Below, piece after piece: positions 8,019 to 40,189 of a DNA stretch of 64,000 nucleotides. Origin of the DNA: Asaia lannensis NBRC 102526 (GTDB lineage: Bacteria > Pseudomonadota > Alphaproteobacteria > Acetobacterales > Acetobacteraceae); contig NZ_JAMXQU010000005.1 of assembly GCF_024054035.1 (NCBI RefSeq), forward strand, positions 186,001 to 250,000, written 5' to 3'. Positions within the stretch are counted from its first letter, which is position 1. Each line of letters opens with the position of its first letter. The notes beneath the pieces are model-generated. The model was not told the DNA's origin, did no database searches, and was given only the letters and a program-made list of their open reading frames with translations. Position numbers and translations under genes: made by a program.

Positions 8019-8020
8019 GA

Positions 8021-21232: not shown

Positions 21233-22981
21233 CTAGATGATCTGTATCATCCCGGTTGCGACCGGGATATGCGTGTCGCCCGATACGATGATAGCGGATT
21301 TCTCGGTCAGGATGTTTTCCAGAGTCAGATCGGAGCGTATCTTGCCGCTCGGTGTGCGAATGATGAAACCCTTGCGAATGAAGAAGAACGAAAAACGCTC
21401 GATGCGATAGGTCTTCATAAGGTCGACCATTGTCTGACGTGCAGCGACAATGCCGGTTTTGTCGTCCTGCTCGATCATCACGCTGGGCAGTTCGCGCTCA
21501 GGCAGGGCGGGCGGGGCAACGACGCAGGTTGCGCCATCGAGAGCATGACTGAGCGAAAGTGCGATGTCGTTTGTGTAATAGACGTTGCCATCGTACATGA
21601 ATTTTTCGCTCAGGCGCCCGACATGATACAATTCGCCGCCATGCAGAAAGCCGAAATCCTGGGTGCGCAGGTAGCGCCTCCCATCTCTTTCAATAAAGCA
21701 GTGCGCATTGCGCACCGGGTTGTTGAGATAACCCAGGCTCACGCTGGGGCTATCGATCCAGATTTCGCCTACTGTATCTGAAGGAAGGAAATCTCCGGTA
21801 TCGGGATTGGCGATGATGAGTTTCTGATCCTCATAGGCCGAACCGCAGCTGGCGAGACAAGAGGTGTTTTCTCCGTCGATACTCTCCGACGCTACGGCTT
21901 TGCCGTGGCTCAGGGCGGTGCGATCGAAAGCGGTCAGCCGGACTCCTGTGCCTTTTTGTCCCGAGGTGACGAGGAGTGCATTTTCTGCGAGCCCGTAGCA
22001 GGGATAGAAAGACTTTCGGTCAAAGCCATGCGCGCCGAAGCGGTCGGCGAAGCGTTCAAGCGTCACCGGATTGATATTCTCGGATCCGTTGAAGGCAATA
22101 CCCCAGCGCGAGAGATCGAGGCCCTGTGCGATATCCTGGGCTGGCAAACGGGCGCAATAGCGATAGGCGAAATCGGGACCGCCCGAAATCGTGGCCCCGA
22201 AACGGCTTATGGCCATGAGCCAACGTAATGGTTTTTCGATGAACTTGTCCGGTGCCATGAAATAAAAGGGATTACCAGCAGCCAGTGCGGGCAGTACAGC
22301 GCCAACCAATCCCATATCATGCGTGAAGGGGAGCCAGCTCAATCCGGTATCGTTGTCCTGATACTGGAACGAAATCAGCTGTGCATGAATATTATGGCAG
22401 ATATTACGGTGCGAGAGGCACACACCTTTCGGATTTTCGGTCGAGCCTGACGTATATTGAACGACGGCCAGATCACTGGATGCAAGCGGTACGGGTTCGA
22501 TCGGGGCTCTGGCCGAAAGAGCGCTTTCCAGAGGTATCCATTTCAGTCCCGTGAAGGCGGCGCCGCCCTGATGAAATAATGTCAGTGTTTCGCGTTTGCC
22601 GAGTACCGCGCGCGCATTACTGTCATCCACAATAAATGCAAAGCGTTCCGTGGCGCCGATCGCGCTGGGATAAATGCCGGATACCGGCACATGACCCGCA
22701 TAGAGACACGCAAAAAAACCGATGATGTATTCGAGGCTGTTCTCGAAAAGCAGAACGACGTGTGATTTCGCGGGTAAAGTGCGCATGAGGTGCGCGCCAG
22801 CGAGAGAGGCGCGACGATGTAATTCGATCGCGCTCAAGCTTTCCGTTACATTTTCACCGTCACCGAGAAAGAGAAAAATCGGGCTTTCGCCCTTCGTCAG
22901 ACGACGGAATTCGAGCAGGTCGACCAGCGTGCGCTGCTTCCAGGAATCGACGCCGACAATGGCCTGATCTTCTTCATACAT
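21233..22981 (-). CDS. Fatty acyl-AMP ligase (FAAL-type adenylate-forming enzyme)
   Basis: A 582-residue enzyme of the ANL superfamily. The ATP-binding loop is intact (YTSGSTENPKG, 176-186), as are the LPFTHDMGLVG segment typical of FAALs, CYGLAEN, the hinge region GRLSEKFMYDGN and the catalytic Lys547 in TPSGKIRSDL. FAALs activate a fatty acid as acyl-AMP and pass it to an acyl carrier protein, often to prime a polyketide synthase; one lies at 33.8-40.2 kb. It is the last gene of a reverse-strand operon, 52 bases after a heptosyltransferase gene. Which carrier accepts the acyl group is unclear, since no free-standing ACP gene is visible. Confidence 0.85.
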   Translation of the reverse strand: MYEEDQAIVGVDSWKQRTLVDLLEFRRLTKGESPIFLFLGDGENVTESLSAIELHRRASLAGAHLMRTLPAKSHVVLLFENSLEYIIGFFACLYAGHVPVSGIYPSAIGATERFAFIVDDSNARAVLGKRETLTLFHQGGAAFTGLKWIPLESALSARAPIEPVPLASSDLAVVQYTSGSTENPKGVCLSHRNICHNIHAQLISFQYQDNDTGLSWLPFTHDMGLVGAVLPALAAGNPFYFMAPDKFIEKPLRWLMAISRFGATISGGPDFAYRYCARLPAQDIAQGLDLSRWGIAFNGSENINPVTLERFADRFGAHGFDRKSFYPCYGLAENALLVTSGQKGTGVRLTAFDRTALSHGKAVASESIDGENTSCLASCGSAYEDQKLIIANPDTGDFLPSDTVGEIWIDSPSVSLGYLNNPVRNAHCFIERDGRRYLRTQDFGFLHGGELYHVGRLSEKFMYDGNVYYTNDIALSLSHALDGATCVVAPPALPERELPSVMIEQDDKTGIVAARQTMVDLMKTYRIERFSFFFIRKGFIIRTPSGKIRSDLTLENILTEKSAIIVSGDTHIPVATGMIQII

Positions 22982-23033
22982 GGGCGGCGACCTGACTGTT
23001 TTTATTGTTGGATATATGGACGAGCGCCATGTT

Positions 23034-24461
23034 TCACCCGGCTTCCGCCGTTGTCAGCTGACGATGCAGGGTCTCGCAATAAGCAAGCACATGTTCGGGC
23101 ATGATGAGGCGAGTGCACTCAAACTGTCTATGCGTGTCCTGATGTCGGGGGCAGAACAGGAAATTACCGTGTTCGAAGGGCGTGCGGATATCGTGCCAGC
23201 AACTATTGCAGACATGAGGATTGAACACACGATACGGCGTGTGGAACTCGTTCGAGGGATGAGTAAAGCCGCTAATCATGACCACCGGTGTTCCTGCTGC
23301 CCATGCAAGCCAAGACAACCCGCTGGATAGGCCGATGAAAAATGCGGCATGGCGAAGCCAGTAAGCCCGCTCAGTCAAAGGGCGATCGCCTGTTTCGTCT
23401 CGTGTCCCGTGCGGAATATAGTTCCAGTGATTGTGGTTTCCTGAGACAGATTCGCGATCTATGCAGACGACCTCGTAGCCCAAAGCATTGAGTTTTTCGA
23501 TAACCGCCGACCATCCGTACGGATTATTCCAGTACTTACATTGGCTGGACGCCTGTGTCGCGATCACGACATAGGGTTTTTCGATTGGACGCTCGCTGAT
23601 CGGCCATTGATTGATCCTGGGAGGTGAATCTGTATCGTCCACGCCCAGAATGTGGGCCGCAGTTCGGTGGAGGCCTACCAAGCGAAAATCGGATGGCTGC
23701 CAGTCATGTACCTCATCGGTGAAGTAAAGGCCGATATAGTAGGTTGCGTAAAATTTGTTCCTCTCACTCTCATATTCATCGAAAGTGCAGCATCGGACGC
23801 TTGGGTACTGGCCGGAGAATAGACTGCATGCGTGCGTACTCATTCCAACTGTAAGACGACATCCATGCTTCTGTTGAAATTTGACGGCATAGGAAAACCA
23901 TCCGATGGCATCGCCTAATGTGCCACCGGGGAGTAGAATTGCGACGTCTTTGTTCCGGCAATCATATTCATGCACAAACGCCGTTTGATCCAGTTCGAGC
24001 GAATGAATTTCGATCCGGGTCGGGATAAAGTATTTTTTTGAGCCCAGCACCATGCAGTTACTGGCTTCTTCCCTGTAGAGACAGACGGAGCGTTCCATGT
24101 CCGTCAGTGTTACACGCCAGCGTCCTGGGGGGAGACTAACGCGTGTGCCAGCATTGAAATCGAACGCAATCCCATGATCAGCAAGTTGGGTAGGATGCGG
24201 TGATGGATCTGGAAACGCACTGCCTGTGCCTGCAGCATGTGACTCAGCATTGGCAGAGGTGGCTTGCATCTCCGATGCTGGAAGCGTTGCCTCTGTCAGC
24301 AGGCTTGTCCCAGCGTCTTCGGTGACCATCTCGATTGGCGTCTCTAACACCGTTTGCGGTGCCGTGTCGGGAGCCGATGGGATTTGCTGTCCCTGATCCG
24401 ACGGCGCGGCTACCCCATCGAAATTCAGAATCGAATCGATGATTGCTTCGATTTTGCTCAT
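23034..24461 (-). CDS. Autotransporter strand-loop-strand O-heptosyltransferase (TibC/BAHT type), first copy
   Basis: A 475-residue cytoplasmic glycosyltransferase. The first ~110 residues are low-complexity (rich in Ala, Pro, Thr, Glu) and absent from the second copy. From FDFNAGTRVSLPPGRWRVTL on it is a typical bacterial autotransporter heptosyltransferase, with the donor-site region VVIATQASSQCKYWNNPYGW and GLSSGLSWLAWAAGTPVV. The iron-finger Cys set is Cys418, Cys421, Cys437 and Cys449 (HVCNSCW, FCPRH, FEC). TibC-type enzymes transfer heptose from ADP-heptose to Ser of strand-loop-strand repeats, which the nearby Hint proteins have. Its ATG at 24461 follows the previous stop by one base; an in-frame ATG at 24488 is an alternative. 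Confidence 0.88.
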   Translation of the reverse strand: MSKIEAIIDSILNFDGVAAPSDQGQQIPSAPDTAPQTVLETPIEMVTEDAGTSLLTEATLPASEMQATSANAESHAAGTGSAFPDPSPHPTQLADHGIAFDFNAGTRVSLPPGRWRVTLTDMERSVCLYREEASNCMVLGSKKYFIPTRIEIHSLELDQTAFVHEYDCRNKDVAILLPGGTLGDAIGWFSYAVKFQQKHGCRLTVGMSTHACSLFSGQYPSVRCCTFDEYESERNKFYATYYIGLYFTDEVHDWQPSDFRLVGLHRTAAHILGVDDTDSPPRINQWPISERPIEKPYVVIATQASSQCKYWNNPYGWSAVIEKLNALGYEVVCIDRESVSGNHNHWNYIPHGTRDETGDRPLTERAYWLRHAAFFIGLSSGLSWLAWAAGTPVVMISGFTHPSNEFHTPYRVFNPHVCNSCWHDIRTPFEHGNFLFCPRHQDTHRQFECTRLIMPEHVLAYCETLHRQLTTAEAG

Positions 24462-24462
24462 T

Positions 24463-25614
24463 TCAGGCTTCGCTTCGCAAATCGGCAATTAAGCGGTTGA
24501 TCGTTTTTTCGACTTGTTCGGGGGAGATCATTTTTGTACATTCGAAATCACGCTCTGTATTGGCGTGGCGCGGGCACCACATATAGTTCAGGCGTTCAAA
24601 TTCAATTGTAACATCATTGGAACAACTGTTGCATACATGACGGTTGATGACGCGATAGGGACTATCGAATTCATTGAGAGGTTCTGTAAAACCGCTGATC
24701 ATGATGACCGGGCAGCCAGACGCCCAGGCAAGCCATGATAACCCACTCGATAAGCCAATAAAGAATGAGGCGTGTTTCAGCCAGCGAGCCCGCTCGCTGA
24801 GAGGTATAAGGCCGGTCATATCCTCAACGCCATGAGGAATGTGATGCCAGATCGTTCCCTGACCCCCAACACGATCACGGTCTATACATATGACGCGATA
24901 GCCGATTTTCTTGAGATAAGCGATGGTACGCGGCCAGCCCTGCGGATTATTCCAGTATTTATTATGACCTGTAGCTTGTGTGGCTATACAGACATAGGGC
25001 TGTTCAATCGGCCTGCCACCTTCGGCAATGCGTATTCTGGGTCGTCTTTCTTTGGGCGTAAGGCCAAGTATATAGGCCCCGGTGACAGCCAGTCCAACCT
25101 GCCTGTAGTCGGTCGGTTGATAATCACGGTTGATATCATTGAAGAAGATCAGGACCTTGTAACGTGCATAAAAAGGACGAACGAGAAAGGTTTTATCCTC
25201 GGTAATCGATAGCCTGTCGTTTTGTCCCTCGAAAAGCTCGGCTAGCCCAGGTCGAACAAGGCATGTGATCTGGCAGCAATGCTCTGCTGCAAAAGCCTCC
25301 ACATGACCCATCCAGGCCAGATGATCGCCCACTCCGCCAAGATGCATATCGATAAGTATCTCCCGGCCAGTCAGATCGAGATGATGCTCGATGACTGTCT
25401 TTCCATCACGAGTGATTTTGAAAGCGAGCGGCACGAAATATTTTTTCGTGCTTGAGATCAGTCCGCCGGAGGTGTCCTGTGAGAACAGCAGAGTCTGCGT
25501 TGTCGTATCACTTATCTCTACATGCCATTTACCCTGGGGGATATTGATGCGACATCCATCCTGAAAATCGAATTGAATTCCCTCTGGGCCGACCTGACTT
25601 GGCATGTTGTCCAT
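24463..25614 (-). CDS. Autotransporter strand-loop-strand O-heptosyltransferase (TibC/BAHT type), second copy
   Basis: A 383-residue paralogue of the adjacent heptosyltransferase, without its N-terminal extension. It starts with the beta-rich domain (IQFDFQDGCRINIPQGKWHV), then LIDMHLGGVGDHLAWMGHVE. The donor-site motif is CIATQATGHNKYWNNPQGW, and GLSSGLSWLAWASGCPVIMI follows. The same four-Cys set is present (Cys328, 331, 347, 359) with identical spacing C-x2-C-x15-C-x11-C. TibC-type enzymes work as multimers, so the two copies may form a hetero-oligomer. It sits 24 bases after the GT4 gene and is coupled to the next gene. Confidence 0.88.
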   Translation of the reverse strand: MDNMPSQVGPEGIQFDFQDGCRINIPQGKWHVEISDTTTQTLLFSQDTSGGLISSTKKYFVPLAFKITRDGKTVIEHHLDLTGREILIDMHLGGVGDHLAWMGHVEAFAAEHCCQITCLVRPGLAELFEGQNDRLSITEDKTFLVRPFYARYKVLIFFNDINRDYQPTDYRQVGLAVTGAYILGLTPKERRPRIRIAEGGRPIEQPYVCIATQATGHNKYWNNPQGWPRTIAYLKKIGYRVICIDRDRVGGQGTIWHHIPHGVEDMTGLIPLSERARWLKHASFFIGLSSGLSWLAWASGCPVIMISGFTEPLNEFDSPYRVINRHVCNSCSNDVTIEFERLNYMWCPRHANTERDFECTKMISPEQVEKTINRLIADLRSEA

Positions 25615-25638
25615 AATTTCGATACTTATCCATTTTTA

Positions 25639-26610
25639 TCAGGCCCGTGGGCCGAAACCGGCACAAATCTCGCCATAAACCTGCATGACCGCTTGAAATG
25701 TCATTCCTAGCGAATAAGTGCTAGCCGTTTTCTGGGCCTCATCGAGCATTCTCTCAACGTGTGGCGCGCGCTGTGGAATATCAAAAATAAGTGCGGCGAG
25801 GCAATCGACAATTTCCTCGCACTGTTCGGGTGAGAACCAGTATCCATTACGGTGCGAAACGTAATCTTTCCCTCCGGTTCCATGAAATCCGACGAGTGCG
25901 CAACGTGACGCCATGGCTTCAAGTGGGGTGAGGGGCAGGGCTTCCTGCCGCGAAAGGGCAAGGAAAATAGCCGAACTGCCCATAGCCTCAGCAACCTCTC
26001 TCTGGGACATTTTTTCCAGCATCAGCCATGGAACATCAGCAGTGTCCGGATATTTGAGATGCAGCATCGACATGATCAGATAAGCTAGGGGAGAGTTTCC
26101 TCCCTCGCCAGGCCACTTGCGTGGATTGGTAGCGATGCACATACGCTTTGCGCGCGGGTAAAAGAGTCCGGTATCGACCGAATTGGGGATAACGTGGATA
26201 TTCGGGACTCGTAGAACAGAAGCGAGAGAACGCGCCGTCTCATGTCCAGGAACGATGAAGTGTTCGAAACCCATCTCCAGCAATGCGCTGCCGCTGTAGT
26301 TGTAGCTGTAGAGGTAGAACGAATTCTGACAAAATAAGACTTTTTTCCCAGGGAATGGGGATTTCGCTATCTCGAGTAAAGGCTCGACGAGGATCTCGGG
26401 GAAAACAAGAACGTCGCCTGCACTCGCATGAAAACTGTCACAGATTGTTATGCGGTCCGAAATATCTATCCAGCTCGGTTTGCCTGCTGGCTGATAGACA
26501 GCAACTTCATAGCCGTTTTTGGCGAGTATTTCTGCATGCTGATAGGTAACCTTGACCCCTCCCGATATCGCATCGGTACCGAATGGGTTGAGGAAAAAGA
26601 TTTTGCCCAT
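25639..26610 (-). CDS. GT4-like glycosyltransferase
   Basis: A 323-residue protein with a GT-B fold layout. The N-terminal acceptor domain has a glycine-rich loop in AISGGVKVTYQHAEILAKNG. The middle carries HVIPNSVDTGLFYPRAKR, and the donor-site stretch SRQEALPLTPLEAMASRCAL with the conserved Glu pair is in the C-terminal half. It probably transfers a sugar from a nucleotide donor; donor and acceptor are unknown. As first gene of the operon with two protein O-heptosyltransferases, it may extend the heptose on the passenger proteins. It is somewhat short for GT4, and the DNA is visibly AT-richer than the flanks. Confidence 0.78.
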   Translation of the reverse strand: MGKIFFLNPFGTDAISGGVKVTYQHAEILAKNGYEVAVYQPAGKPSWIDISDRITICDSFHASAGDVLVFPEILVEPLLEIAKSPFPGKKVLFCQNSFYLYSYNYSGSALLEMGFEHFIVPGHETARSLASVLRVPNIHVIPNSVDTGLFYPRAKRMCIATNPRKWPGEGGNSPLAYLIMSMLHLKYPDTADVPWLMLEKMSQREVAEAMGSSAIFLALSRQEALPLTPLEAMASRCALVGFHGTGGKDYVSHRNGYWFSPEQCEEIVDCLAALIFDIPQRAPHVERMLDEAQKTASTYSLGMTFQAVMQVYGEICAGFGPRA

Positions 26611-26833
26611 AAATATTCCGTCCTCGCCAAGGTTTCTCGCGCCTTCTGCAGATCAGCACGTCTTCAGTTGCATGTAATCCAAGCTGTAGGGCGCCGAGCC
26701 ACAATGCAGTCATAGCGCCCGAGGCCCTCTCTGTCTCATGATAAAGCGCTGATGTTTTCAGGCAGAAGTCCGTCGGTGCTATGATGCTGGCTCGTTAAGA
26801 AAACTATTGTGCGCCGTTAAATAATCTCCGGTA

Positions 26834-27149: not shown

Positions 27150-27268
27150 CAATGTGGATTAAAGGGCGCGGGCGAATGGTTAATATACGGTAAATTTTTC
27201 CGCGGTTGTGATGTCTGTCTGCAGCGCGATCGCCCTGCATGTCGAGTCTGCTATCAAAGGAAGAAGAA

Positions 27269-29515
27269 ATGGCTATTACGTCCAACGTCTCGGTAAGTGG
27301 TGCTCAGATTACGTCGTCGAGCGGTAAATACACAGTTCTGAGTGGTGCCACGCTTGCTGTTACTGGGGGAGGCTATGTTACTTCAGGGGCGATCGTCTCT
27401 GGATTTGGTAATGGGCCAGAAAACTCGGGTGCGCTCCCTGGGCAATCGGGGGGGACTAATTATCCAGCTTTGCTCCTCGCTTCAGCTGGGGGTATCGTTT
27501 CAGGCTCGACGGTCGGTTTTGGTGGCGTAGCGATGGGCGCTAATGGCGGTACGGCAGCAGGGGGTACCGCTCTCAATAGTGGTTCTTTCGTTGCAGCGAA
27601 CGGTGGCTATGTCGATGGTGCTACAATTGGGTCGAATGGTGGTGTTCTAGCCTCCCAGGTTTCGGGCTACGACGGCGGTGCTGGTGTTGTGCGCAATACT
27701 CATGTCGAGGCTGGTGGTTATGGTCTGGCGGGCGGTGGGTTTACCATCAAAGGTCAGCGTTTCGCAGGCTCTGGAATTATCTCTAGCGGACAGTTCGATA
27801 TTGGTTCGACCGAGATTCTGGTGTCTGGTGGCACGGATGTGGGGAGTATTATTGGTGGGACGCAGATTGTTTCATCAGCTGGTATCGCGTTCAAATCGAT
27901 CTTCAGTGCTGGAACGCAGCTTATCTCGTATGGTGGTTATGCGAGTGGTTCTGTTGTTTCTGCCGGGGGGCGTATCGAGGTATATTCAGGTGGAACTGGC
28001 TCGTCCATCACCGTAGGCTCTGCTGGAAGTCTTCATGTCGGCCCTTATGGATTGGTTAGGGGGGTGGAGATTCAGGCCGCGGGTGCTGCGACTGCCGAGG
28101 CTGCAGCTGTGCTGTCGGGCGCAGTAATTGATGGCGGTGGTACTCTGACCCTCAACTCAGGTGCAACATTATTCAATGGCACGATCGTGGGTACAACCTC
28201 GGATGGCGCTGCCGGGGGATTGCTTGTGCTTCACTCAGGTGCGGTGCTTAGCGGTGTGACATCGATGGGTTGGAAGAGCCGCCTCGATGTCGATAGCGTT
28301 CAATTCGTCTCTGGCGCCACAGTCCAGTATTCGGGGGGTACGGCCACAATCCTTGATGCCAGCTCGAATGTCTTGTGGCAGGGAAGCGTGGCGACGTTAA
28401 CTGGAAGTACAGCGAAAGACTTCCATCTTGAGCGTGATCCTAACGACGGGAGCCTGATCCTTGTCTACGATAAATGCTTTCTGAAAGGGACAATGATTCG
28501 CACGGATCGTGGCGAGGTTGCTGTTGAAAATCTGAACGTGGGTGATCGCGTCTTGGCCTATGTCGACGGCCGCGAGGAGTTGCGTCAGATCATATGGACT
28601 GGGCATCGCTCGGCCGTCGTGCGTCAGGGGCTTCCGGATGATGAGGCGGGCTATCCTGTTCGCATCCTGCGCCACGCACTGGCAGAGAACGTGCCCCATA
28701 AGGATCTTCTGGTGACCCCGGAGCATGCGCTCTATCTGAACGGCGCTTTCGTACCGGCACGCATGCTTGTCAACGGACGAAGCATCCTCTTTGATCGCAC
28801 AATCACACAATTCGATTATTATCATATCGAGACGGATGAACATTCCATTATCTGGTCGGATGGTGCGCTTAGTGAAAGTTATCTGGATACCGGTGATCGT
28901 CAGACATTCTCTCAGAATAGTCCGGTTGTAAGATTGTTGAATGCTCCCGAGCGTAGTTGGGAGACGGATGCGGCGGCGCCCTTGCGTGTGGGGCGTGATT
29001 TCGTTGAGCCTCTCTTCGCCTCTCTGGTTGATAGGGCGAATGCAATGGGGCTTGTTGGTAGCCATACCCAAATGCCGGTAACTGATAATCCTGATCTTCA
29101 TCTTATCGATAATGATGGGCATGTGTATCGCTCCGTACGCCAGGCTAATGGAGCTTATATCTTCATGGTTCCTGCTCAGGCTGGCGACGTATACATCGTG
29201 TCTCGCACCGCGCGCCCAGTTGATGTCGTCGGCGCATTTCTGGATGATAGACGTCACCTTGGTGTGCTGATTGGTGAAATCCAGATTTGGGAAGCGGGGC
29301 AAACCCGTAATCTGGATACCCATCTGACACGTGATACGCTGGAGGGATGGGCCAATAAAGAGGCTGGAAAAATGCGCTGGACCACCGGTCGTGCATTGCT
29401 CTGTCTGTCGGAGCTGCCTGCTGATGCTGTTGCAATGGTGAGCATCGAGGTTCTGGATGGTGGGCCGTATCGAGTCAGTTCCTCCGAAAACGAAGTGTTT
29501 TCCTCGGTCGGATAA
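27269..29515 (+). CDS. Hint-domain protein with strand-loop-strand passenger repeats, first of a tandem pair
   Basis: A 748-residue protein. Residues 1 to about 360 are Gly/Ser/Ala-rich beta repeats (SGGTDVGSIIGGTQIVSSAG, FSAGTQLISYGGYASGSVVS), the consensus of autotransporter passengers that carry O-heptose. A Hint_2 domain starts at Cys403 (DKCFLKGTMIRTDRGEVAVE), has the VGDRVLAYVDG turn and the TPEH block with Thr483 and His486. A conserved C-terminal region of about 200 residues follows (YIVSRTARPVDVVGAFLDDR). No signal peptide, no beta-barrel and no intein-type C-terminal HN. Self-cleavage before Cys403 is expected from the family. The start follows AAAGGAAG by five bases. Confidence 0.85.
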   Translation: MAITSNVSVSGAQITSSSGKYTVLSGATLAVTGGGYVTSGAIVSGFGNGPENSGALPGQSGGTNYPALLLASAGGIVSGSTVGFGGVAMGANGGTAAGGTALNSGSFVAANGGYVDGATIGSNGGVLASQVSGYDGGAGVVRNTHVEAGGYGLAGGGFTIKGQRFAGSGIISSGQFDIGSTEILVSGGTDVGSIIGGTQIVSSAGIAFKSIFSAGTQLISYGGYASGSVVSAGGRIEVYSGGTGSSITVGSAGSLHVGPYGLVRGVEIQAAGAATAEAAAVLSGAVIDGGGTLTLNSGATLFNGTIVGTTSDGAAGGLLVLHSGAVLSGVTSMGWKSRLDVDSVQFVSGATVQYSGGTATILDASSNVLWQGSVATLTGSTAKDFHLERDPNDGSLILVYDKCFLKGTMIRTDRGEVAVENLNVGDRVLAYVDGREELRQIIWTGHRSAVVRQGLPDDEAGYPVRILRHALAENVPHKDLLVTPEHALYLNGAFVPARMLVNGRSILFDRTITQFDYYHIETDEHSIIWSDGALSESYLDTGDRQTFSQNSPVVRLLNAPERSWETDAAAPLRVGRDFVEPLFASLVDRANAMGLVGSHTQMPVTDNPDLHLIDNDGHVYRSVRQANGAYIFMVPAQAGDVYIVSRTARPVDVVGAFLDDRRHLGVLIGEIQIWEAGQTRNLDTHLTRDTLEGWANKEAGKMRWTTGRALLCLSELPADAVAMVSIEVLDGGPYRVSSSENEVFSSVG

Positions 29516-29986: not shown

Positions 29987-32203
29987 ATGGGTATTACTTC
30001 CGCAGGTATGAGTGGAAACGCCTCGATTACCAAGATCGGTCCGACGACATATCGGGTGCTGAGTGGCGCAACGCTCATCACGACCGGCGTGAATTACACG
30101 ACGACCAATGCTTATGTTGCAGGGCTTGGGGCTGGTGGGACGAATAATCCGGCCATGCTTATCGGGTCTGCGGCCTCGGTCGCTTATGGAGCGACGGCAG
30201 TGTCCGGTGGCGTGGTGCTTGCCGGTGGCAAAGGATCAGCGGCTGGCGGTACAGCGTATGATAGTGGTGGTTTTGCTGCCATCAACGATGGTGTCGTGAG
30301 TGGTGCGACTATCGGTGCCCAGGGTGGCGTGCTGGCTAGTAAGATGTCGAATTACGGGGGGGCGGCGGGGCTGGTTGTCGACGTTCACGTTCAGTCTGGC
30401 GGCGTCGGCCTTGCGGGTGGCGGTTTTACACTCAAGGGGCAATCGTTTGTGGGGCCGGGTGTCATCTCAGCCAGTAAGTTCGATATAGGCTCGACTGAAG
30501 CGCTCGCAAGCGGCGGTACTGACATCGGCAGCATTGTGGGTGGTACACAGATTGTCTCGGCTGGCGGTTCTGCTGTCGGTACGCTATTCAGTGCAGGAAC
30601 TCAGCTGCTCGGCGCTGGTGCATTCGCAAGCAACTGTATCGCTTCTGCGGGCGGCCTTATTCATGTCGGGTCCGGTGCGACGGCTCTGTCTACCACTCTT
30701 GGATCGGGCGGAAACCTGCTTGCCGATGGCGGGGCCAGAATGACCCTTCTTTCCGTTCGGGCTGCTGCAGCGGCGACGCTCGACGCCCGGTCCTATCTGA
30801 TGAGTGCGGTGATTGCGGCAGGCGGTACGCTGACAGTCAATTCCGGTGCTACATTGACCAACGCAGTCATTTCCGGAATCTGCGAGGAAGGGCACGGTCC
30901 CGGTGGGTTACTTGTCGTGCAGTCGGGCGCCGTTCTCAAGGGGATCAGCATCGGATGGAAGGGGCGCATCGATGTCGACACGCTCAACTGGACCGATGGT
31001 CAGCGCATTGTTTACGGCAACAGCACAATCAGCATCGTGAACGCAGCCGGCCAGGTTGTCTGGAGTGCCGATGTGCGGGGCACGGCCGGAAATGCGGCAA
31101 GCGATTATCATCTCGAAAGAGATCCGACCGACGGCAGCACAATCATCGTTTATGACAAGTGCTTTCTAAGGGGAACAATGATCCTGACAGAGCGCGGCGA
31201 GATTGCGGTCGAGAATCTCGTTGTGGGGGATCGTGTCGCTGCTTATGTTGAGGGAGCGACCGAGTATCGTAAGGTTATATGGCTCGGTCATCGATCAACG
31301 ATTGTCAGAACATGGCTCGATGATGACGAAGCTGGTTACCCGGTACGTATCCTGCGTAATGCCTTGAGCGAGGGTGTGCCGCACAAAGACCTGCTCGTGA
31401 CACCCGAACATGCCATGTATCTCAACGGAGCCTTCGTGCCGGCTCGTATGCTCGTGAACGGTCGCAGCATCTATTATGATCGTACGATCACGCATTTCGA
31501 CTACTATCATGTTGAAACCGATGCGCATTCCATTCTCTGGGCCGATGGCGCGCTGAGCGAAAGCTATCTGGATACTGGCGATCGCAAGCGTTTTGCCGAG
31601 CCAGGTGCAGTCGTACATCTTCTCAATGCGTCAGAAAACACATGGGAAGATAATGCCGCGGCATCTCTGCGTGTTGATCGGGGTTTTGTGGAACCCTTGC
31701 ATGCCTCGCTTACGCATCGTGCTGCTTTTCTCAATCTGGGACAGACAGTGCAGATACCGGAAGTTATCGAAGATCCCGATCTGCATCTGATTGATGAGAG
31801 CGGTCGCGTTATGCGCAAGATGCGTGTCGTCAACCGATCAAGTGTTTTCATGCTACCGCCGGATGCGAAGCGTGTGCGTATTGTCTCGCGGGTGTCGCGG
31901 CCATCTGATGTCGTTGGACCGTTTCATGACGACAGGCGCCGTTTGGGTGTGTTGATTGGAGATATCCAGATATGGGAAGCCGACAGGACACGTTATATGG
32001 CCGATCATCTTCACAATGAAACGCTTGAAGGTTGGTCCAATATTGAGGATGGTCATCAACGATGGACCACCGGAGCTGCGATGCTGGACCTGAGCGATCG
32101 TCAATCCGATGCGGTTTGTATTGTGGCGATCGAAGTATTGGCAGGGGGGCCATATCTTGTTCAAGCCCCGCCAACTGAGCTTTTTGGAGCTCAGGTGGGC
32201 TGA
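29987..32203 (+). CDS. Hint-domain protein with strand-loop-strand passenger repeats, second of a tandem pair
   Basis: A 738-residue close paralogue of the protein encoded just upstream, similar along its whole length. The passenger (1 to about 350) shares blocks such as GLAGGGFTLKGQSF, ASGGTDIGSIVGGTQIVSAG and GGTLTVNSGATL. The Hint domain begins at Cys392 (DKCFLRGTMILTERGEIAVE) and has TPEH with Thr472 and His475. The tail contains VRIVSRVSRPSDVVGPFHDD. No signal peptide or barrel is seen. The G+C of this copy looks higher than that of the first, so the pair may have diverged or one may have been acquired separately. A terminator follows 40 bases downstream. Confidence 0.85.
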   Translation: MGITSAGMSGNASITKIGPTTYRVLSGATLITTGVNYTTTNAYVAGLGAGGTNNPAMLIGSAASVAYGATAVSGGVVLAGGKGSAAGGTAYDSGGFAAINDGVVSGATIGAQGGVLASKMSNYGGAAGLVVDVHVQSGGVGLAGGGFTLKGQSFVGPGVISASKFDIGSTEALASGGTDIGSIVGGTQIVSAGGSAVGTLFSAGTQLLGAGAFASNCIASAGGLIHVGSGATALSTTLGSGGNLLADGGARMTLLSVRAAAAATLDARSYLMSAVIAAGGTLTVNSGATLTNAVISGICEEGHGPGGLLVVQSGAVLKGISIGWKGRIDVDTLNWTDGQRIVYGNSTISIVNAAGQVVWSADVRGTAGNAASDYHLERDPTDGSTIIVYDKCFLRGTMILTERGEIAVENLVVGDRVAAYVEGATEYRKVIWLGHRSTIVRTWLDDDEAGYPVRILRNALSEGVPHKDLLVTPEHAMYLNGAFVPARMLVNGRSIYYDRTITHFDYYHVETDAHSILWADGALSESYLDTGDRKRFAEPGAVVHLLNASENTWEDNAAASLRVDRGFVEPLHASLTHRAAFLNLGQTVQIPEVIEDPDLHLIDESGRVMRKMRVVNRSSVFMLPPDAKRVRIVSRVSRPSDVVGPFHDDRRRLGVLIGDIQIWEADRTRYMADHLHNETLEGWSNIEDGHQRWTTGAAMLDLSDRQSDAVCIVAIEVLAGGPYLVQAPPTELFGAQVG

Positions 32204-32270: not shown

Positions 32271-32290
32271 GTATTTAGGGATTGTTGTCT

Positions 32291-33754
32291 ATGTTTCATG
32301 TCATGGCCCTGCGTCACGCTCGGCAAAACCCGCAATCCCTTGCCTTCGACAGTCTGGCGCAGGACTGGACTTTCGGGCAGCTGGACAGGGATGTTACTGC
32401 GGTTACCCAGGCTCTGGGCAAACTCAGAGAAGTGGATCCTCGTCTGGTCGGAATTCATTGCGGTAATCTATACTGGCACTGGGTTCTTATCCTATCTCTC
32501 GCCTCGCTCGGGCTTGCCAGTGCGTCTCTGCCGGAGAGCTCGAACCCGACATTTCTCAGAGATGTCCAGCTTCTGGAGCCTGATGTCGTCATTTCCGTGG
32601 GGGGATTGTCCCTGCAGGAAATCCAGGTGCTGGAAATCAACGAAGCCTGGTTTTCACGCGTCACGCAGGCGCCGGCCGAACGATGCAATCTGGCGATCGA
32701 TTACGATGCTGTGTGTCGCTATGCAATTGCTGCAGGTACTGATGCAGAGCGGCGTGTACTTGCCATGACTTTCCGCCAGGCGGAAATGGCGATCACACAT
32801 ATGATCCTTCAGGATCAGTCACTCAGTGCTGTGGCGGCCACCCATCCTCATATCCTGTCGACCATCGGTGTGATTTCGTTGACCGGATTTATCGTCGGGT
32901 GCACCGGGCTCTGCGCAGGATCGCCTCTGAATTTTGTCAGCCATACCGATATCGGTATTCTGATTGCACGCAAGATACCGACCGTTGCGGTCGTGACGCC
33001 AGGTCATCTGGCTCACATTCTTGAAGTGTTGCCCCCTGGTATGAAGCCGTTGGATACACTCAAGCTCATCGTAACCGGTGGGCGTTTCAATCAGGTATTG
33101 CGTGATAGGGCAATTGCGAAACTCACGCCTAACGTCATCTCGGCTTATGGTGCCGATGAATGCGGCGCGCTTGCGCTGGGAGATGCAGCCAGATTCAGCG
33201 CCGACACTATGGTCGGCACGATCTTGCCATGGGTTACGCTGCAGATCGTCGATGCGTATGACAAGCCTCTTTCTCACGGTGTGGAGGGGATCGTCAGAAT
33301 TCGAAGCTCTGGGTTGTTGGATAGCTATGTCGATACAGGGTCGGGACAGGCACGACGTTTTTCGGATAGATGGTTCTATCCGGGTGATCGCGGACATGTC
33401 AGCGCGGATGGCATGCTTTGTATCACCGGACGCGTAGACGATCTTGTATCTATCGGAGGTGAGAAATTCGACCTCGGAATTGTGGATGATATTGCGCGGA
33501 ACCTGCTACAGCAGCGAGAACTTGGGAGCTTTACTTCTCTGGATGAAACGGGGCGGACACGAATCAATATCGCCTTGGCTTCGTCGAAAGATTTCGACGC
33601 CGAAAGCCTCGCGCAGGGATTGAGAGCCTTTTACCCTACGTTGCCACCTGTGCGGGTTATGTCGGTGGACCACATTCCCTGGTCGATCGATGGCCGTCTG
33701 GACCGTGAGAGACTGTCTGACGCCTTCGCGCGCTCTCAGGCAGCGAGTGAGTGA
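32291..33754 (+). CDS. Degenerate adenylate-forming (ANL superfamily) enzyme
   Basis: A 487-residue protein with the overall ANL layout. The substrate-domain motif is YGADECGALALGD, and WFYPGDRGHVSADGMLCITG then GRVDDLVSIGGEKFDL correspond to the A7/A8 region. However, the Ser/Thr/Gly-rich ATP loop (YTSGTTGxPKG) is absent; the equivalent place reads LAMTFRQAEMAITHMI. The catalytic C-terminal Lys is Arg (SIDGRLDRERL, near residue 469). It therefore may not adenylate and could be a binding or docking protein for the next gene, a polyketide synthase. The ATG at 32291, nine bases after AGGGA, is preferred over TTG 32282. Confidence 0.7.
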   Translation: MFHVMALRHARQNPQSLAFDSLAQDWTFGQLDRDVTAVTQALGKLREVDPRLVGIHCGNLYWHWVLILSLASLGLASASLPESSNPTFLRDVQLLEPDVVISVGGLSLQEIQVLEINEAWFSRVTQAPAERCNLAIDYDAVCRYAIAAGTDAERRVLAMTFRQAEMAITHMILQDQSLSAVAATHPHILSTIGVISLTGFIVGCTGLCAGSPLNFVSHTDIGILIARKIPTVAVVTPGHLAHILEVLPPGMKPLDTLKLIVTGGRFNQVLRDRAIAKLTPNVISAYGADECGALALGDAARFSADTMVGTILPWVTLQIVDAYDKPLSHGVEGIVRIRSSGLLDSYVDTGSGQARRFSDRWFYPGDRGHVSADGMLCITGRVDDLVSIGGEKFDLGIVDDIARNLLQQRELGSFTSLDETGRTRINIALASSKDFDAESLAQGLRAFYPTLPPVRVMSVDHIPWSIDGRLDRERLSDAFARSQAASE

Positions 33755-33844: not shown

Positions 33845-36800
33845 ATGTCGCGTAGCAAAACGTCGGATATTGCCATTATCGGGATCGGTTGCCGTCTGGC
33901 TCCCAACATTACCAATGTCGACGAGCTCTGGTCTTTCCTGTGCGCGGAAGGCGAGGCGGTCACCGATGTTCCGGACGAGCGCTGGAGCGTAAAACGCTTT
34001 TACAGCGAGGAAATCGAATCCCCGTCGAAAACCTATATGCGGCGCGGTAGTTTCCTGAGGCAGAACATCCACGAATTCGAACCTCTGTTTTTCGGAATCT
34101 CGCCCAGAGAGGCGCAGATTCTCGATCCGCAGCAGAAACTCCTGCTCGAGGTGACCTGGGAGGCCATGGAAACGGCACGCATCCTGCCCGCGCGCCTTTC
34201 CGGCCACAGAACGGGTGTGTTTGTCGGCATCTTCGCGATCGATGCCCATGCGCATACGTCCAGCCCCTATAATCTGCCGACCGTGCGCGATCATTTCGCA
34301 GCGACTGCTACCCCGTCGACCATGCTTTCCGCCCGACTGGCGCATGTCTTCGACTTCCAGGGGCCATGCATGTCGATCGATACGGCATGCTCGTCGTCGC
34401 TCGTGGCCTTGCATCAGGCCTGCCGCAGCCTGAATGAGGGCGATATCGACATTGCCATTTCAGGTGGTGTCAGCCTCATGGACTGTCCACAGACCTCGAT
34501 TTTCATGTCGAAGGGCCATTTCATTGCACGTGACGGCCGCTCCAAGAGTTTCGATGCGGCAGCCGATGGATACGGACGCGGTGAGGGAAGCGTCGTGTTC
34601 ATTCTCAAGCGTCTGGAGGATGCTGAACGCGATGGTGACACGATCCATGCTATCGTCAGTGCGACAGGCGTCAATTCCGATGGCCGCACCCAGTTCCTGA
34701 CCTCTCCCGATGCCGGAGCGCAGTCGCGTCTGATGACGGAGGTTCTGGAACGGGCCGATGTCGATCCGCGCGAGATTGCCTATGTCGAAACACATGGCAC
34801 GGGTACCCCCGCCGGCGATCCGATCGAGACCTACGCATTGTCGCAATCGATTGCCCGCTTCAAGGACGAGAAGCTGGTTATTGGCGCAATCAAGGCCAAT
34901 CTCGGTCATACCGAGGCTGCGGCCGGCGTGCTGGGCACGCTCAAGGCAGCCTTGTGCCTGCGTCATCAGGAAGTGCCTCCCCAGCCCGGACTGAAAACAA
35001 TCAATCCGTCCATTCATCTCGATGAGTGGAATCTCGAGATCCCAATGGGTGAGCGGCGCGCACTTGGGGGCGACGAGCCGGCGCGTTACGCGGGGGTCAA
35101 TTCATTCGGATACGGCGGCACGAATGCAATCGCCGTTTTGCGCCGTCCGGAAAATCGTTTCTCCGCTGCGAAGGCGCCGCAGGAAGCGCGTCGCATCAAC
35201 GGGAAGATCCCGTTTCTCCTGACGGCGTTCTCGAAAACATCCTTGCCACTGATGGCCGCAGCCTATCGGGACCGTCTGGAGGGAAATAACAGCCCCGATC
35301 TGGGCGATCTTGCTTTCAGCGTTGCCACATCGCGTACGCTCTTTCGCCACCGTCTGCTCGTCCTTGCGCATGACGAGCAGGATCTCGCAGGAAAGCTCGA
35401 GGCGTATCTCAAGGACCAGCGTCAGGAAGACATGATCTCGGCGACTGTCGAGGCAGAGGCCGGTCGTGGCATCGTGTTCGTCTGTTCCGGTGTTGGCCCA
35501 CAATGGTGGGGTATGGGGCGCTATCTGCTGCGTGAAGCGCCAGAAACCATTCTCGCTCTGGCACAGGAATGCGACAGGCTGTTCAGCGCTCTATCAGGTT
35601 GCTCGATCCTTGAGGAAATCCTGCGTGGTGAGGCAGAGAGCCGGATCGATAATACGGCAATCCTGCAGCCTGCCATTTTCGTCATCCAGATTCTGGTCAC
35701 AGAATATCTCGCCCAGCAGGGCATTCGCCCTGATGCCGTGCTCGGCCACAGCATGGGTGAAGTCGCCGCAGCCTATGTGTGCGGAAGTCTCACCCTCGAA
35801 GACGCGGTTACCGTCATCTATTATCGCAGTAAACTTCAGGGATCGCTCGATGGTACGGGCCGTATGCTTGCCGTCGGCCTTTCCGCCGAGGCGGCGCTGG
35901 AGCTAATCGAGGCAGAGGCGCCCGAGCTCTGTGTGGCTGCCATCAACGCACCCACGACCTGCACGTTGGCGGGGCCGGAACCCGCCATTCGTCACCTGGC
36001 CGCCCATCTCACGCAAAAGGGCCTGTTCAACAGGATCCTCAATGTGGATGTTCCTTTCCACAGCGCTGTCATGGACAGGATCGAAACCTCGCTCAAGGAG
36101 GCTTTGTCGGGGCTTGAGCCCAAGGCAGCCGTGACACCGTTCTATTCGACGGTTTACGGCAAGCGTGTGGATGAGGATCATCGTGCGGATTGCGGATACT
36201 GGTTCAGTAATGCCCGTCAGCCGGTCCTCTTCTCTTCGGCTGTCGAAGCCTGTCTTGCAGACGGCTTTACGCAATTCGTCGAAATTGGTCCGCATCCGGT
36301 CATCGGGCGGGCGCTGAAATCCGTTGCCGACAAACAGCAGGCCAAGCTGAGTGTCATCAGCACACTCAACAGGCAGGAAAGCGAAGCAAAATGTCTCGAA
36401 CACGCTGTCGCCTCGATAATCCTGCACACGGCACGCCTCGACTGGCCGGCCATCACAGGCGGTAGGCTGATCGACCTGCCGACCTATCGCTGGTCGCGCG
36501 AAATATTCCGTATAGAAAACGAACGCGAGCATCGGTTCCGTCATGGCGGCAAGGGTCATCCGCTGATCGGTTTCGGCGCCATGACACCAGGAAAATCATG
36601 GGTGGTCGATCTGACCGAACTCGGTGTGCCCTGGCTCAAGGATCATTGTATCGACAATGTCGTCTTGCTGCCTGCAGCAGGATTTATCGAATCCGCTCTG
36701 GCCGTCGGGCATGACATTGAAGGCCAGACTGGCGTCGTGCTGGAAAATTTCGAAATTCTCGCTCCTCTGGTCGTACAGTCGGGTGATAACCCCATTCTCT

Positions 36801-39800
36801 ATCTCGATTACGAGGAAAGCAGAAAGCGTCTTCGCTTTCATAGCGCGAAGGAAGAATTTTCCGAGATGTGGATCGATCACGGCTCGGTCGATATCCTTTC
36901 TGCAGCGCCCTGGCCCATGCCCGTTATCGACAGAGCGCAGGCTCTGTCGGCGCTCGAACAGGGCGTCGAAGGGGCTGCCCTGTATGAGAAGATCCGCGGT
37001 CATGGCTTTCACTACGGTCCCCGCTTTCAGACACTTCAGCGTCTGGCCGTGCAGGATCGTATCGCCTATGCCCGTATCGGCCTGATCGAAAACGAGATCG
37101 CTGCGGCTGATGCATATTACCTGCATCCGGCATTGCTGGATGGCGCCATGCATGCGCTGATCGGCCTCGTGCCCGAAAGCTTTTCGGATCATATGTATGT
37201 GCCGGTCGGTTTCGACAGACTGAGCTGTTTCGGCAAGGGACATGCAGAAATTCTGGCGCGTGTCGAAATCACATCGATCAGCCGCAGCCAGATCGAGGCG
37301 TTCGTGCGTCTTTACACGCCTGAGGGTATGCCCGTCGCCGAGGTCAAGGGGCTGCGCTTTGCCGAAGTGCCACGTGCGCAGAAGGACGTGACGACAACAG
37401 TCGAGACGCAGGAATATTTTACCAGATGGGTCGAAGTCGAGGCATCGATCCTTTTTGCAGAGCCGAAGACCATTCTTCTGGTCGGGCATAAAAATGCGGC
37501 CCGCAAGAAGCTTGCAACGCTGTTCGAGGAGAATGGCGTGACGGTTCTGGAGGCCCCTCGTTCGGGCGATATCACGGCGGAAACGATCGGTCTGGAGCCC
37601 GGACTGGCGCTTGATGGCATTGTTTATATGGCATCGCCGGATCCCGATTACGCGTTCGAAAAACTCATCGATCAGGTCAACGCTCTCGTCAAATTCGGCG
37701 AGTGTCTCAAACTCGAAGGGCAAGACAGGCAGCCTCGCCTAATCTATGTGTCGGAAAACGCGAATTTCTTCGATCCGGAGGACGTTCTTTCATCACGTTC
37801 GGTCGTCAATCCGGATGGAGCAGCCCTCCTTGGCTTCTTCAAGGGGCTGGTGGACGAGCGCCCGGAGTTCAGAGGCAAAAGTATCGACGTTGCTACCCTC
37901 AGCGGCACCGAGGCTCTGACTGCACTGGCAGCCGAAATCCTCAACGAGGATAACGAAGCAGAAATTGCCCTGCGCGAAGGACGTCGCTTCGTTCCACGTT
38001 TCATGCCTGTCGATGGGCAGCCGGACCGGCCCTTGGCACAGTTGCCGGGGTCACCGGGCATAAAGCTGCAGAAAAGCCGCACCGGAACGCTGGACGGTCT
38101 GCATTACAAGGCCTTCGACGTCAAACCGCCGGGTCGCGGGGAAATCCTCGTGCGTGTCCTCGCGACATCGCTGAACTTCAAGGACATGCTCAAGGGCATT
38201 TCGGTTCTGCCTGAGAAATTCCTGCTCGATACCTATCATACGGTTGAAATGGGCATGGAATGCTGTTTCGAGGTCATGGCGGTCGGCAAGGGGGTCAGGA
38301 ATTTCGAGATCGGCAAACGCTATCTGACCTGTCATCCGGGATGTTTTGCCTCGCATATGACGATCCCGGTCAAGGGCTTCCGTGCAACGCCGCTCGAACT
38401 TTTCGAGACACAGGGACGTCCTGTCACGGTGCATGAGGCGACCGGTTTGCCGATTGCCATCGCGACCGCTTTGTATTGCCTGTACGATCTGGCCCGCCTC
38501 AAGAAGGGTGAGATCCTGCTCGTCCACTCGGCGGCAGGTGGCGTTGGTCTTGCAGCAATCGAGATCGCGAAAATCATCGGCGCACGGGTGTTCGCGACGG
38601 CCAGCAATGACGAAAAGCGCCAGATACTGCTCGACCGTGGGTGTGAGGCGGTGTGGGATTCACGCAGCCTTGCCTTCTATGACGGTATTCTCGAAGTCAC
38701 GAACGGGCAGGGCGTCGATGTCGTGCTGAACAGCTCGCCGGGAGAAATACAGGCCCATAGCCTTGCGCTGCTGTGCAATACGGGGCGCTTTGTCGAGATC
38801 GGCAAGAAGGACATCTGGGAAAAGCGCGATCTGTCCCAGTTCAGCTTTAACGGAAATGTGTCGTTTCACGCTTTCGATCTTGATCTCATGATGGCGCAGA
38901 ACCATCGCAAGGCCGTCTCGATTTTCGACCGTATTCCCTATCTCTCGCGCAAATTTGACACGGTGGTTCTTCCGCACCGGGTCTACCCCGCGTCGGAAGT
39001 GCGCGATGCGTTCAAGTTCATGTCCTCGTCCAAACATATCGGCAAAATTCTCGTGTCTTACGAGGATCTGACGAATGTACGTGCACAGCGTCAGCCCGTA
39101 CGGCCAGTCGATCCTTCAGCGGCCTATCTGGTCACAGGCGGCCAGGGTGGTCTGGGTCTGGCGACGGCTGCATGGCTGGTGGCGAGCGGCGCGCGTCATC
39201 TGCATCTTGTGGGGCGTAGTGCACGGCGCGACAAGGCGACACTCGATCAGATCAGGGCACTGAAAAAGGCTGGGGCCCGCGTTACGCTGCACTATGGGGA
39301 TGTCAGCCGCTACGAGGATGTGGCCCGTATCAAGGAAGATATTCTCGAGACGGGTCATGAACTCAAGGGTGTCTTTCACGCAGCCGGTATTCTCGACGAC
39401 CGTCTGATCTCGAAATATTCTGAAGACAGTCTCCGCAGCGTTCTGGCTCCGAAGGTGTTGGGTGGGCGTCACCTCGATCTGCTCACACGCGACTGCCCGC
39501 TCGATTATTTCGTGCTCTACTCCTCCATCGTGACGGTCACGGGAAATATTGGGCAGAGCAGTTATCTGGCTGCCAATGCCTGGCTCGATGCGCTGGCCAG
39601 TGCCAGACGCAAGGAGGGCTTGCCAGCAGTTTCCGTGCAGTGGGGACCGATTGCCGAAGTGGGTATGCTGGCGAAAGACGAGAATGTGGTTCAGTTCTTC
39701 GAGAACGCAGGCTTTCGTCTTCTGCCTGGGCAGGAAGCCCTGTCTTTCCTGACTTCGCTGATCAATCGCGACCGCGATACCGTGGCAGCAATGGCAATCG

Positions 39801-40189
39801 ACTGGGAAACCTGCTTTGCCCATCATGGGGCCATAGAGCGCAATCCGAAATTCGGCCTTATCCGTCGTGAGAAGAGCATCAAGAACACGTCTGCCCAGAA
39901 GCTTGCGCATCTCCAGAGCCTGACACCGGAGGAGCGTTACGAGTTCGTGCTCGATAACGTGAAATCCATTCTCGGCAACGTGCTCAAGCTCGAGCCCGAC
40001 AGCATCGACCCGGGAGCAAGACCCAACGAACTGGGTGTCGACTCACTGGCAGGTGTGGAAATCCAGACAGCGATCAAGACAGAATTCAACGTCGAGATTT
40101 CGCTGCTCGTTCTGTCTCGTAACGAGCCGATACGCGAGATCGCCCGAAACGTCCTGCGTCAGATCAGCCTCAACGCCATGGCAGCCTGA
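33845..40189 (+). CDS. Type I reducing polyketide synthase, single module KS-AT-DH-ER-KR-ACP
   Basis: A 2,114-residue iterative-type synthase. The ketosynthase spans about 8-430 with Cys182 (DTACSSS), His317 and His355. The acyltransferase (about 535-830) has Ser636 in GHSMGE and the malonyl-type FH in VPFHS. The dehydratase (about 905-1185) has His934 and Asp1099. A structural linker (about 1195-1400) precedes the enoylreductase (about 1425-1740, HSAAGGVGLAA). The ketoreductase (about 1755-1945) has VTGGQGGLGLATA and Tyr1907; the C-terminal carrier has Ser2067 in GVDSLAG. No methyltransferase or thioesterase is seen. It could elongate an acyl chain supplied by the FAAL at 21-23 kb. Product and release are unknown. 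Confidence 0.92.
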   Translation: MSRSKTSDIAIIGIGCRLAPNITNVDELWSFLCAEGEAVTDVPDERWSVKRFYSEEIESPSKTYMRRGSFLRQNIHEFEPLFFGISPREAQILDPQQKLLLEVTWEAMETARILPARLSGHRTGVFVGIFAIDAHAHTSSPYNLPTVRDHFAATATPSTMLSARLAHVFDFQGPCMSIDTACSSSLVALHQACRSLNEGDIDIAISGGVSLMDCPQTSIFMSKGHFIARDGRSKSFDAAADGYGRGEGSVVFILKRLEDAERDGDTIHAIVSATGVNSDGRTQFLTSPDAGAQSRLMTEVLERADVDPREIAYVETHGTGTPAGDPIETYALSQSIARFKDEKLVIGAIKANLGHTEAAAGVLGTLKAALCLRHQEVPPQPGLKTINPSIHLDEWNLEIPMGERRALGGDEPARYAGVNSFGYGGTNAIAVLRRPENRFSAAKAPQEARRINGKIPFLLTAFSKTSLPLMAAAYRDRLEGNNSPDLGDLAFSVATSRTLFRHRLLVLAHDEQDLAGKLEAYLKDQRQEDMISATVEAEAGRGIVFVCSGVGPQWWGMGRYLLREAPETILALAQECDRLFSALSGCSILEEILRGEAESRIDNTAILQPAIFVIQILVTEYLAQQGIRPDAVLGHSMGEVAAAYVCGSLTLEDAVTVIYYRSKLQGSLDGTGRMLAVGLSAEAALELIEAEAPELCVAAINAPTTCTLAGPEPAIRHLAAHLTQKGLFNRILNVDVPFHSAVMDRIETSLKEALSGLEPKAAVTPFYSTVYGKRVDEDHRADCGYWFSNARQPVLFSSAVEACLADGFTQFVEIGPHPVIGRALKSVADKQQAKLSVISTLNRQESEAKCLEHAVASIILHTARLDWPAITGGRLIDLPTYRWSREIFRIENEREHRFRHGGKGHPLIGFGAMTPGKSWVVDLTELGVPWLKDHCIDNVVLLPAAGFIESALAVGHDIEGQTGVVLENFEILAPLVVQSGDNPILYLDYEESRKRLRFHSAKEEFSEMWIDHGSVDILSAAPWPMPVIDRAQALSALEQGVEGAALYEKIRGHGFHYGPRFQTLQRLAVQDRIAYARIGLIENEIAAADAYYLHPALLDGAMHALIGLVPESFSDHMYVPVGFDRLSCFGKGHAEILARVEITSISRSQIEAFVRLYTPEGMPVAEVKGLRFAEVPRAQKDVTTTVETQEYFTRWVEVEASILFAEPKTILLVGHKNAARKKLATLFEENGVTVLEAPRSGDITAETIGLEPGLALDGIVYMASPDPDYAFEKLIDQVNALVKFGECLKLEGQDRQPRLIYVSENANFFDPEDVLSSRSVVNPDGAALLGFFKGLVDERPEFRGKSIDVATLSGTEALTALAAEILNEDNEAEIALREGRRFVPRFMPVDGQPDRPLAQLPGSPGIKLQKSRTGTLDGLHYKAFDVKPPGRGEILVRVLATSLNFKDMLKGISVLPEKFLLDTYHTVEMGMECCFEVMAVGKGVRNFEIGKRYLTCHPGCFASHMTIPVKGFRATPLELFETQGRPVTVHEATGLPIAIATALYCLYDLARLKKGEILLVHSAAGGVGLAAIEIAKIIGARVFATASNDEKRQILLDRGCEAVWDSRSLAFYDGILEVTNGQGVDVVLNSSPGEIQAHSLALLCNTGRFVEIGKKDIWEKRDLSQFSFNGNVSFHAFDLDLMMAQNHRKAVSIFDRIPYLSRKFDTVVLPHRVYPASEVRDAFKFMSSSKHIGKILVSYEDLTNVRAQRQPVRPVDPSAAYLVTGGQGGLGLATAAWLVASGARHLHLVGRSARRDKATLDQIRALKKAGARVTLHYGDVSRYEDVARIKEDILETGHELKGVFHAAGILDDRLISKYSEDSLRSVLAPKVLGGRHLDLLTRDCPLDYFVLYSSIVTVTGNIGQSSYLAANAWLDALASARRKEGLPAVSVQWGPIAEVGMLAKDENVVQFFENAGFRLLPGQEALSFLTSLINRDRDTVAAMAIDWETCFAHHGAIERNPKFGLIRREKSIKNTSAQKLAHLQSLTPEERYEFVLDNVKSILGNVLKLEPDSIDPGARPNELGVDSLAGVEIQTAIKTEFNVEISLLVLSRNEPIREIARNVLRQISLNAMAA

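Follow-up and report, generated by a model that had tools for sequence, protein, structure and literature searches.

A 64,000-nucleotide stretch of the Asaia lannensis NBRC 102526 genome (contig NZ_JAMXQU010000005.1, positions 186,001 to 250,000; hereafter the window) contains a locus in which two proteins with Hint domains are encoded beside two TibC-type heptosyltransferases, a fatty acyl-AMP ligase (FAAL), an ANL-like protein and a reducing type I polyketide synthase (PKS). We tentatively propose, as a reading whose chances are close to even, that the locus specifies a single glycoprotein system of the cell surface and a lipid pathway dedicated to it, in which the product of the FAAL, the PKS and the ANL-like protein modifies or anchors the passenger carried by the Hint proteins. 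Open reading frames and profile matches in the window define two facing blocks, a reverse one with the order FAAL-TibC-TibC-GT4 and a forward one with the order Hint-Hint-ANL-like-PKS. A first-pass annotation of this DNA had described the same genes, families, coordinates and facing arrangement, all of which the Pfam and NCBIfam searches bear out. Its overall interpretation, that glycosylated passengers lacking a barrel carry a self-cleaving domain beside a lipid pathway, is partly supported.

By sequence and by structure prediction, the Hint proteins carry a barrel-less beta-helix of the TibA/Ag43 type. Pfam finds a Hint_2 domain in each (PF13403, 130 and 126 bits) and no outer-membrane beta-barrel in either, and no signal peptide is seen on reading their sequences. 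The AlphaFold model of passenger 2 is a mostly confident beta-helix over residues 10-390. A PDB comparison puts this modeled domain in the TibA/Ag43 type: the TibC-glycosylated TibA fragment 4q1q_A ranks first (E 4e-8, TM 0.85 (target), 20% identity), with Ag43 structures next. The passenger is thus predicted to share the fold of a known TibC substrate. The absence of a barrel and the C-terminal Hint domain described in the first-pass annotation are thereby upheld. The strand-loop-strand (SLS) repeats that it reported fare less evenly: the repeat model TIGR04415 is weak in the window passengers (28.2 and 17.1 bits against a cut-off of 30), but it scores clearly above the cut-off in three PKS-linked Hint homologues at loci of other genera (68.6, 95.6 and 38.8 bits), and the predicted fold of passenger 2 also favors such repeats.

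In the Hint domain itself, C392 and the TxxH motif (T472-H475) are invariant in the alignment. In the full-length model the Hint half of passenger 2 was predicted poorly. When the Hint and C-terminal domains were modeled by themselves, the confidence was only moderate, and the Hint part matches the bacterial intein-like domain 2lwy and inteins; this confidence is too low for us to assign a fold to the C-terminal domain. The C-terminal ~200 residues of the passengers have no family match in Pfam. We consider cleavage by the Hint domain probable. Judged by eye, the Hint proteins of genus g65 (L217:5507-8233 and L106:4121-6664) seem to carry a C-terminal domain unlike that of Asaia, which would mean that the part after Hint may be exchangeable.

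Sequence comparisons support the view that both TibC enzymes of the window keep their active sites. Their TIGR04414 scores (553 and 543 bits) are each more than 340 bits above the cut-off of 200, Pfam places the N-terminal TibC_1st domain (PF21129) in both, and TibC 2 matches the TibC crystal structure 4rap over its full length (E 1e-113). TibC 1 has an extra N-terminus of ~97 amino acids and an uncertain start codon. Residues were compared in an alignment of TibC with 81 proteins from these loci, in which some rows are overlapping fetches of one gene. Asp110, Lys230, Arg286 and Trp305 are present in 82 of 82 sequences, and residue 226 is either Thr or Ser, the latter in TibC 1 of the window. 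In TibC, Asp110 is the catalytic base, and Lys230, Arg286, Trp305 and Thr226 bind the sugar (PMC4358343). The four iron-finger cysteines are kept in at least 81 of the 82 sequences, with one gap, and both window enzymes have all four. Residue 300 is Ser in 81 of 81 aligned proteins; AAH, which has Ser at this residue, takes both ADP-heptose epimers (PMC4358343). With these family scores and intact residues, the TibC-type assignment of the first-pass annotation stands. All nine genera tested have genes of the HldE and HldD types for ADP-heptose, with two HldE-type matches below cut-off. TibC-type genes are present in 88 of 300 Acetobacteraceae genomes, as against one genome in 385 sampled from other families of the class. 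Heptosylation of the passenger is very probable.

These enzymes might instead glycosylate the PKS product, which would give a heptose glycolipid and leave the Hint protein as a bystander. Two genera in which TibC and the PKS occur together without an adjacent Hint gene would suit such an arrangement. However, PF21129 and the iron finger are retained, and it is the N-terminal domain and iron finger that TibC uses for dimerization and for TibA binding (PMC4358343). The Hint passenger also has a predicted TibA fold, and TibC-Hint pairs exist away from any PKS, so we regard the glycolipid as very unlikely.

The comparison across genera is the reason for taking the locus as more than chance. Among 300 Acetobacteraceae genomes, this PKS type, defined by the best matches over the whole length together with the divergent copies of genus g30, occurs in 29 genomes from nine genera, and a TibC gene lies within ~10 kb in all 29. 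An ANL gene and a FAAL gene are also present at the PKS loci that were read, and a Hint gene stands beside ANL at PKS clusters in seven genera. The gene set of the first-pass annotation is thus conserved together beyond Asaia. Gene order varies: Asaia has the two facing blocks, most others have a single run of ANL-PKS-FAAL-TibC with or without a second TibC, and two genomes of g30 have the order Hint-ANL-Hint-PKS-FAAL-TibC-TibC. Three small genomes (G061, G136 and G214) have one Hint_2 match each, and it is located beside ANL. Counterparts of the ANL-like protein in seven other Asaia show 69-80% identity and stand among the same genes.

Adjacency within the Asaia genome alone would be weak evidence. 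In the 3.2 Mb genome, whose contig 5 holds the window, a genome search finds 20 full Hint_2 genes, among them a third one of the window at 4085-6439 (784 amino acids), and a third TibC gene is located elsewhere (L094:7377-8534), with Hint and PKS matches absent within ~6-7 kb. So many Hint genes would make it easier for unrelated genes to be grouped by chance, but the neighborhood is kept in nine genera despite their differing gene orders, and genomes with a single Hint gene retain it. A chance neighborhood is rejected on these grounds and is scarcely credible.

Hint and TibC genes also pair where this PKS is absent. Among 34 non-PKS TibC loci chosen blind to Hint, 13 have a Hint gene, compared with ~1 expected, and none of 200,000 simulations reached 13. 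The raw count of 17 of 38 included four loci picked for a nearby Hint gene, and 13 of 34 is therefore used as the unbiased figure. A second cluster in the Asaia genome G260 (contig C32) has the order Hint-ANL-PKS-FAAL without TibC alongside (L067:12376-19901 and L086:1-4346), and its PKS appears split in two frames. From these pairwise links, the Hint passenger, TibC and ANL-PKS-FAAL are modules that each occur paired without the third. The nearest and most constant neighbor of Hint in the PKS clusters is ANL, which is still beside Hint in g65, with no PKS close by.

The FAAL is closest to known FAALs (e.g., 3kxw, FadD32 and FadD28) and not to CoA ligases by NCBIfam and PDB comparison, with all NCBIfam scores below curated cut-offs. 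It adjoins the PKS in other genera too, and its predicted role is to charge the carrier domain of the PKS with a fatty acid. The PKS is a single reducing module in which the KS Cys, AT GHS and ACP DSL motifs are intact in Asaia, and its AT motif VPFHS suggests the use of malonyl units. A recognizable AT serine motif is absent from the g30 PKS (L124 and L125), so the acyltransferase may there be missing, divergent or supplied in trans. The FAAL and PKS matches agree with the lipid-type pathway that the first-pass annotation placed beside the passengers. Its ANL-like assignment holds at the level of family, but the lysines that an active adenylating enzyme has at A3 (P-loop) and A10 are lost in the PKS-linked orthologues aligned; A5/A7/A8-like motifs are kept. 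The ANL relatives of g65, which stand beside Hint with no PKS in reach, retain both lysines.

If these parts act together, the two TibC enzymes would, in the cytosol, transfer heptose from ADP-heptose to Ser/Thr residues of the beta-helix. The GT4 enzyme might lengthen this glycan. The Hint domain would form a thioester at its first Cys and the C-terminal half would be cut off, leaving a free or modified passenger C-terminus. The FAAL would activate a fatty acid and the PKS would elongate it. Because the PKS cluster lacks a thioesterase, the ANL-like protein may help to pass on the long acyl product. In the final and weakest step, the acyl product would end on the passenger, either on its sugars or at the Hint cleavage site, and anchor it to the envelope. 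Attachment of lipid to the passenger has slightly less than an even chance, and a Hedgehog-like adduct at the Hint site accounts for a little under half of that.

Several observations weigh against the proposed glycoprotein system. Genera g33 and g101 have their Hint gene outside the cluster; in the tree, the large g101 Hint protein groups with PKS-adjacent Hint proteins of g62. Hint_2 proteins occur in 227 of the 300 family genomes, mostly without this PKS. The Hint and C-terminal domains found beside the PKS fall outside any single clade of the tree, which means that the Hint half need not recognize a specific lipid. A single origin of the PKS-linked Hint domains was not recovered in this tree, and no Hint-PKS co-descent is claimed. 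No export system was found among the genes beside the Hint loci checked. In the Asaia genome, the neighbors of the Hint genes show no convincing recurrence of any family apart from Hint itself, and the neighbors checked in G061 (DsbD, glycosyltransferases, a beta-propeller, an FAD oxidoreductase/halogenase-like protein, a TonB receptor and GGDEF-EAL) reveal no export route.

The PKS could also make a free lipid or metabolite, such as an antifungal or a membrane lipid, with the Hint adhesin being separate and sharing only location or regulation. The several origins of the Hint genes and the two genera with off-cluster copies are what this would predict, and the literature lists the cluster among metabolite clusters with an unknown product (PMC8776678). 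A type-1 PKS cluster with two adenylation domains has been put forward as an antifungal candidate in Bombella (PMC8262860), though another paper, which notes the cluster in Asaia and Saccharibacter, doubts a symbiosis-specific role and argues that it is not a bee-symbiosis trait (PMC9147383). A free product would leave it odd that all 29 genomes with this PKS also have the protein-modifying TibC close to it and that g30 has a Hint gene between ANL and the PKS, and we judge it somewhat unlikely.

A further alternative is that Hint cleaves by simple hydrolysis and frees a soluble heptosylated adhesin, while the acyl chain, never attached to the adhesin, goes to lipopolysaccharide or another envelope component that helps to retain that protein. 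Many genomes have Hint_2 proteins without such lipid genes nearby, and the PKS-adjacent Hint and C-terminal domains are of several origins, both of which would be natural on this account; the constancy of ANL beside Hint, also in g65 without the PKS, would not, and we consider simple hydrolysis improbable. At the other extreme, the locus could be a counterpart of Hedgehog lipidation, in which Hint, the C-terminal domain and the ANL-like partner move the heptosylated beta-helix onto the FAAL-PKS lipid. The result would be a barrel-less, lipid-anchored glycoprotein adhesin, and other Hint-ANL loci may use other lipids, for example a triterpenoid-type one at locus L217. This specific version of the proposal is unlikely.

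Locus L217 (positions 316-9787, genome G064 of g65) has a tight same-strand run of ANL, a Hint_2 protein with an SLS passenger, a Rieske oxygenase, an SDR/epimerase, a sterol-type methyltransferase and a squalene-hopene cyclase. The position of Hint-ANL beside triterpenoid-type genes in this one genome recalls the use of sterol by Hedgehog. Such genes were not seen by Hint-ANL in G139, the one other g65 genome compared, and the association is therefore not generalized. Coordinates for the window are collected in Table 1. A TonB receptor and a Sel1-repeat protein adjoin Hint genes or the PKS cluster at two sites of the genome, the one listed there and L096:7692-16746.

Table 1. Features of the locus and its flanks, in window coordinates
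Feature	Position	Strand	Basis or remark
FAAL, 582 aa	21233..22981	-	PF00501 E 2.8e-52; NCBIfam/PDB relatives include FAALs
TibC-type (BAHT) heptosyltransferase 1, 484 aa	23034..24488	-	TIGR04414 552.7 bits
TibC-type (BAHT) heptosyltransferase 2, 383 aa	24463..25614	-	TIGR04414 543.1 bits; 4rap match
GT4-family glycosyltransferase, 323 aa	25639..26610	-	PF00534/PF13692; homologues beside ANL in other genera
Hint passenger 1, 758 aa: SLS-type beta-helix, Hint_2 at aa 413-551, C-terminal domain	27239..29515	+	PF13403 1.1e-37; PF16168 AIDA 7e-4; TIGR04415 28.2 bits
Hint_2 domain of passenger 1; first residue Cys413 (putative nucleophile)	28475..28891	+	
Hint passenger 2, 738 aa	29987..32203	+	PF13403 2.1e-36; AlphaFold model
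Beta-helix passenger domain of passenger 2, aa 10-390	30014..31156	+	Mostly high pLDDT; best PDB match 4q1q_A
Hint domain of passenger 2 from invariant Cys392; TPEH motif	31160..31606	+	Alignment; model matches 2lwy and inteins
C-terminal domain after Hint, passenger 2, ~198 aa, mostly beta	31607..32200	+	No Pfam match; moderate-confidence model
ANL-like protein, 490 aa, conserved Met at aa 4	32282..33754	+	PF00501 1.5e-15; orthologue alignment
Type I PKS KS-AT-DH-ER-KR-ACP, 2114 aa, no thioesterase	33845..40189	+	Pfam; active-site motifs
MFS transporter	40311-41573	-	Flanking neighbor, not counted as part of the locus
TonB receptor and Sel1 protein	17467-20566		Flanking neighbors, not counted as part of the locus

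The proposed system would widen the reach of TibC-type protein heptosylation beyond autotransporters, to Hint proteins that lack a barrel. A concrete role would also fall to a PKS cluster that is conserved in acetic acid bacteria, namely in Asaia and, according to published work, in Bombella and others; this cluster has been put forward as the origin of an antifungal in symbionts of honey bees. Should the lipid indeed be attached to the passenger, the locus would be a bacterial case of Hint-linked glycoprotein lipidation.

The first-pass annotation had taken the four-part combination to be undescribed. This does not hold, because a published survey (PMC8776678) lists the beta-group type-1 PKS, acyl ligases, an O-heptosyltransferase and Hint proteins in Asaia. 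The beta-group cluster of Acetobacteraceae reported there is the same as ours in PKS domain order, flanking acyl ligases, O-heptosyltransferase and Asaia Hint proteins. That work treats it as the source of an unknown small molecule and draws no link to a TibA-fold Hint passenger. A text search of the literature returned no other paper linking Hint, heptosyltransferase and PKS. The gene set was thus already known; what is new, as far as the literature found extends, is the glycoprotein reading, the predicted TibA fold of the passenger, the Hint neighborhood in other genera and the PKS-free TibC-Hint pairs.

The closest characterized relatives are the Escherichia coli systems TibC/TibA, AAH/AIDA-I and Ag43 (PMC4358343), with which the locus shares the TIGR04414 family, the active-site and iron-finger residues and a predicted TibA-fold beta-helix. 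Unlike TibA, AIDA-I and Ag43, the Asaia passengers have no barrel and end in Hint and a further domain. The locus also differs in having two TibC genes in series and FAAL, PKS and ANL genes in the cluster, and its enzymes resemble AAH in their Ser at residue 300. With bacterial intein-like (BIL) and Hedgehog Hint domains it shares the Hint fold, a first-residue Cys and TxxH, and cleavage on the N-terminal side only is expected. In contrast to the Hog part of Hedgehog, the Pfam assignment is PF13403 (Hint_2) only, and a C-terminal domain without a family replaces the sterol-recognition region. The mycobacterial FadD32/Pks13 and FadD23/Pks2 pairs likewise combine a FAAL with a single-module PKS, and the Pks2 model aligns with the Asaia PKS almost end to end, at a score below cut-off. 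Unlike those pairs, the Asaia system has an AT whose VPFHS motif suggests malonyl units and no thioesterase, and its partners are a degenerate ANL protein and protein heptosyltransferases.

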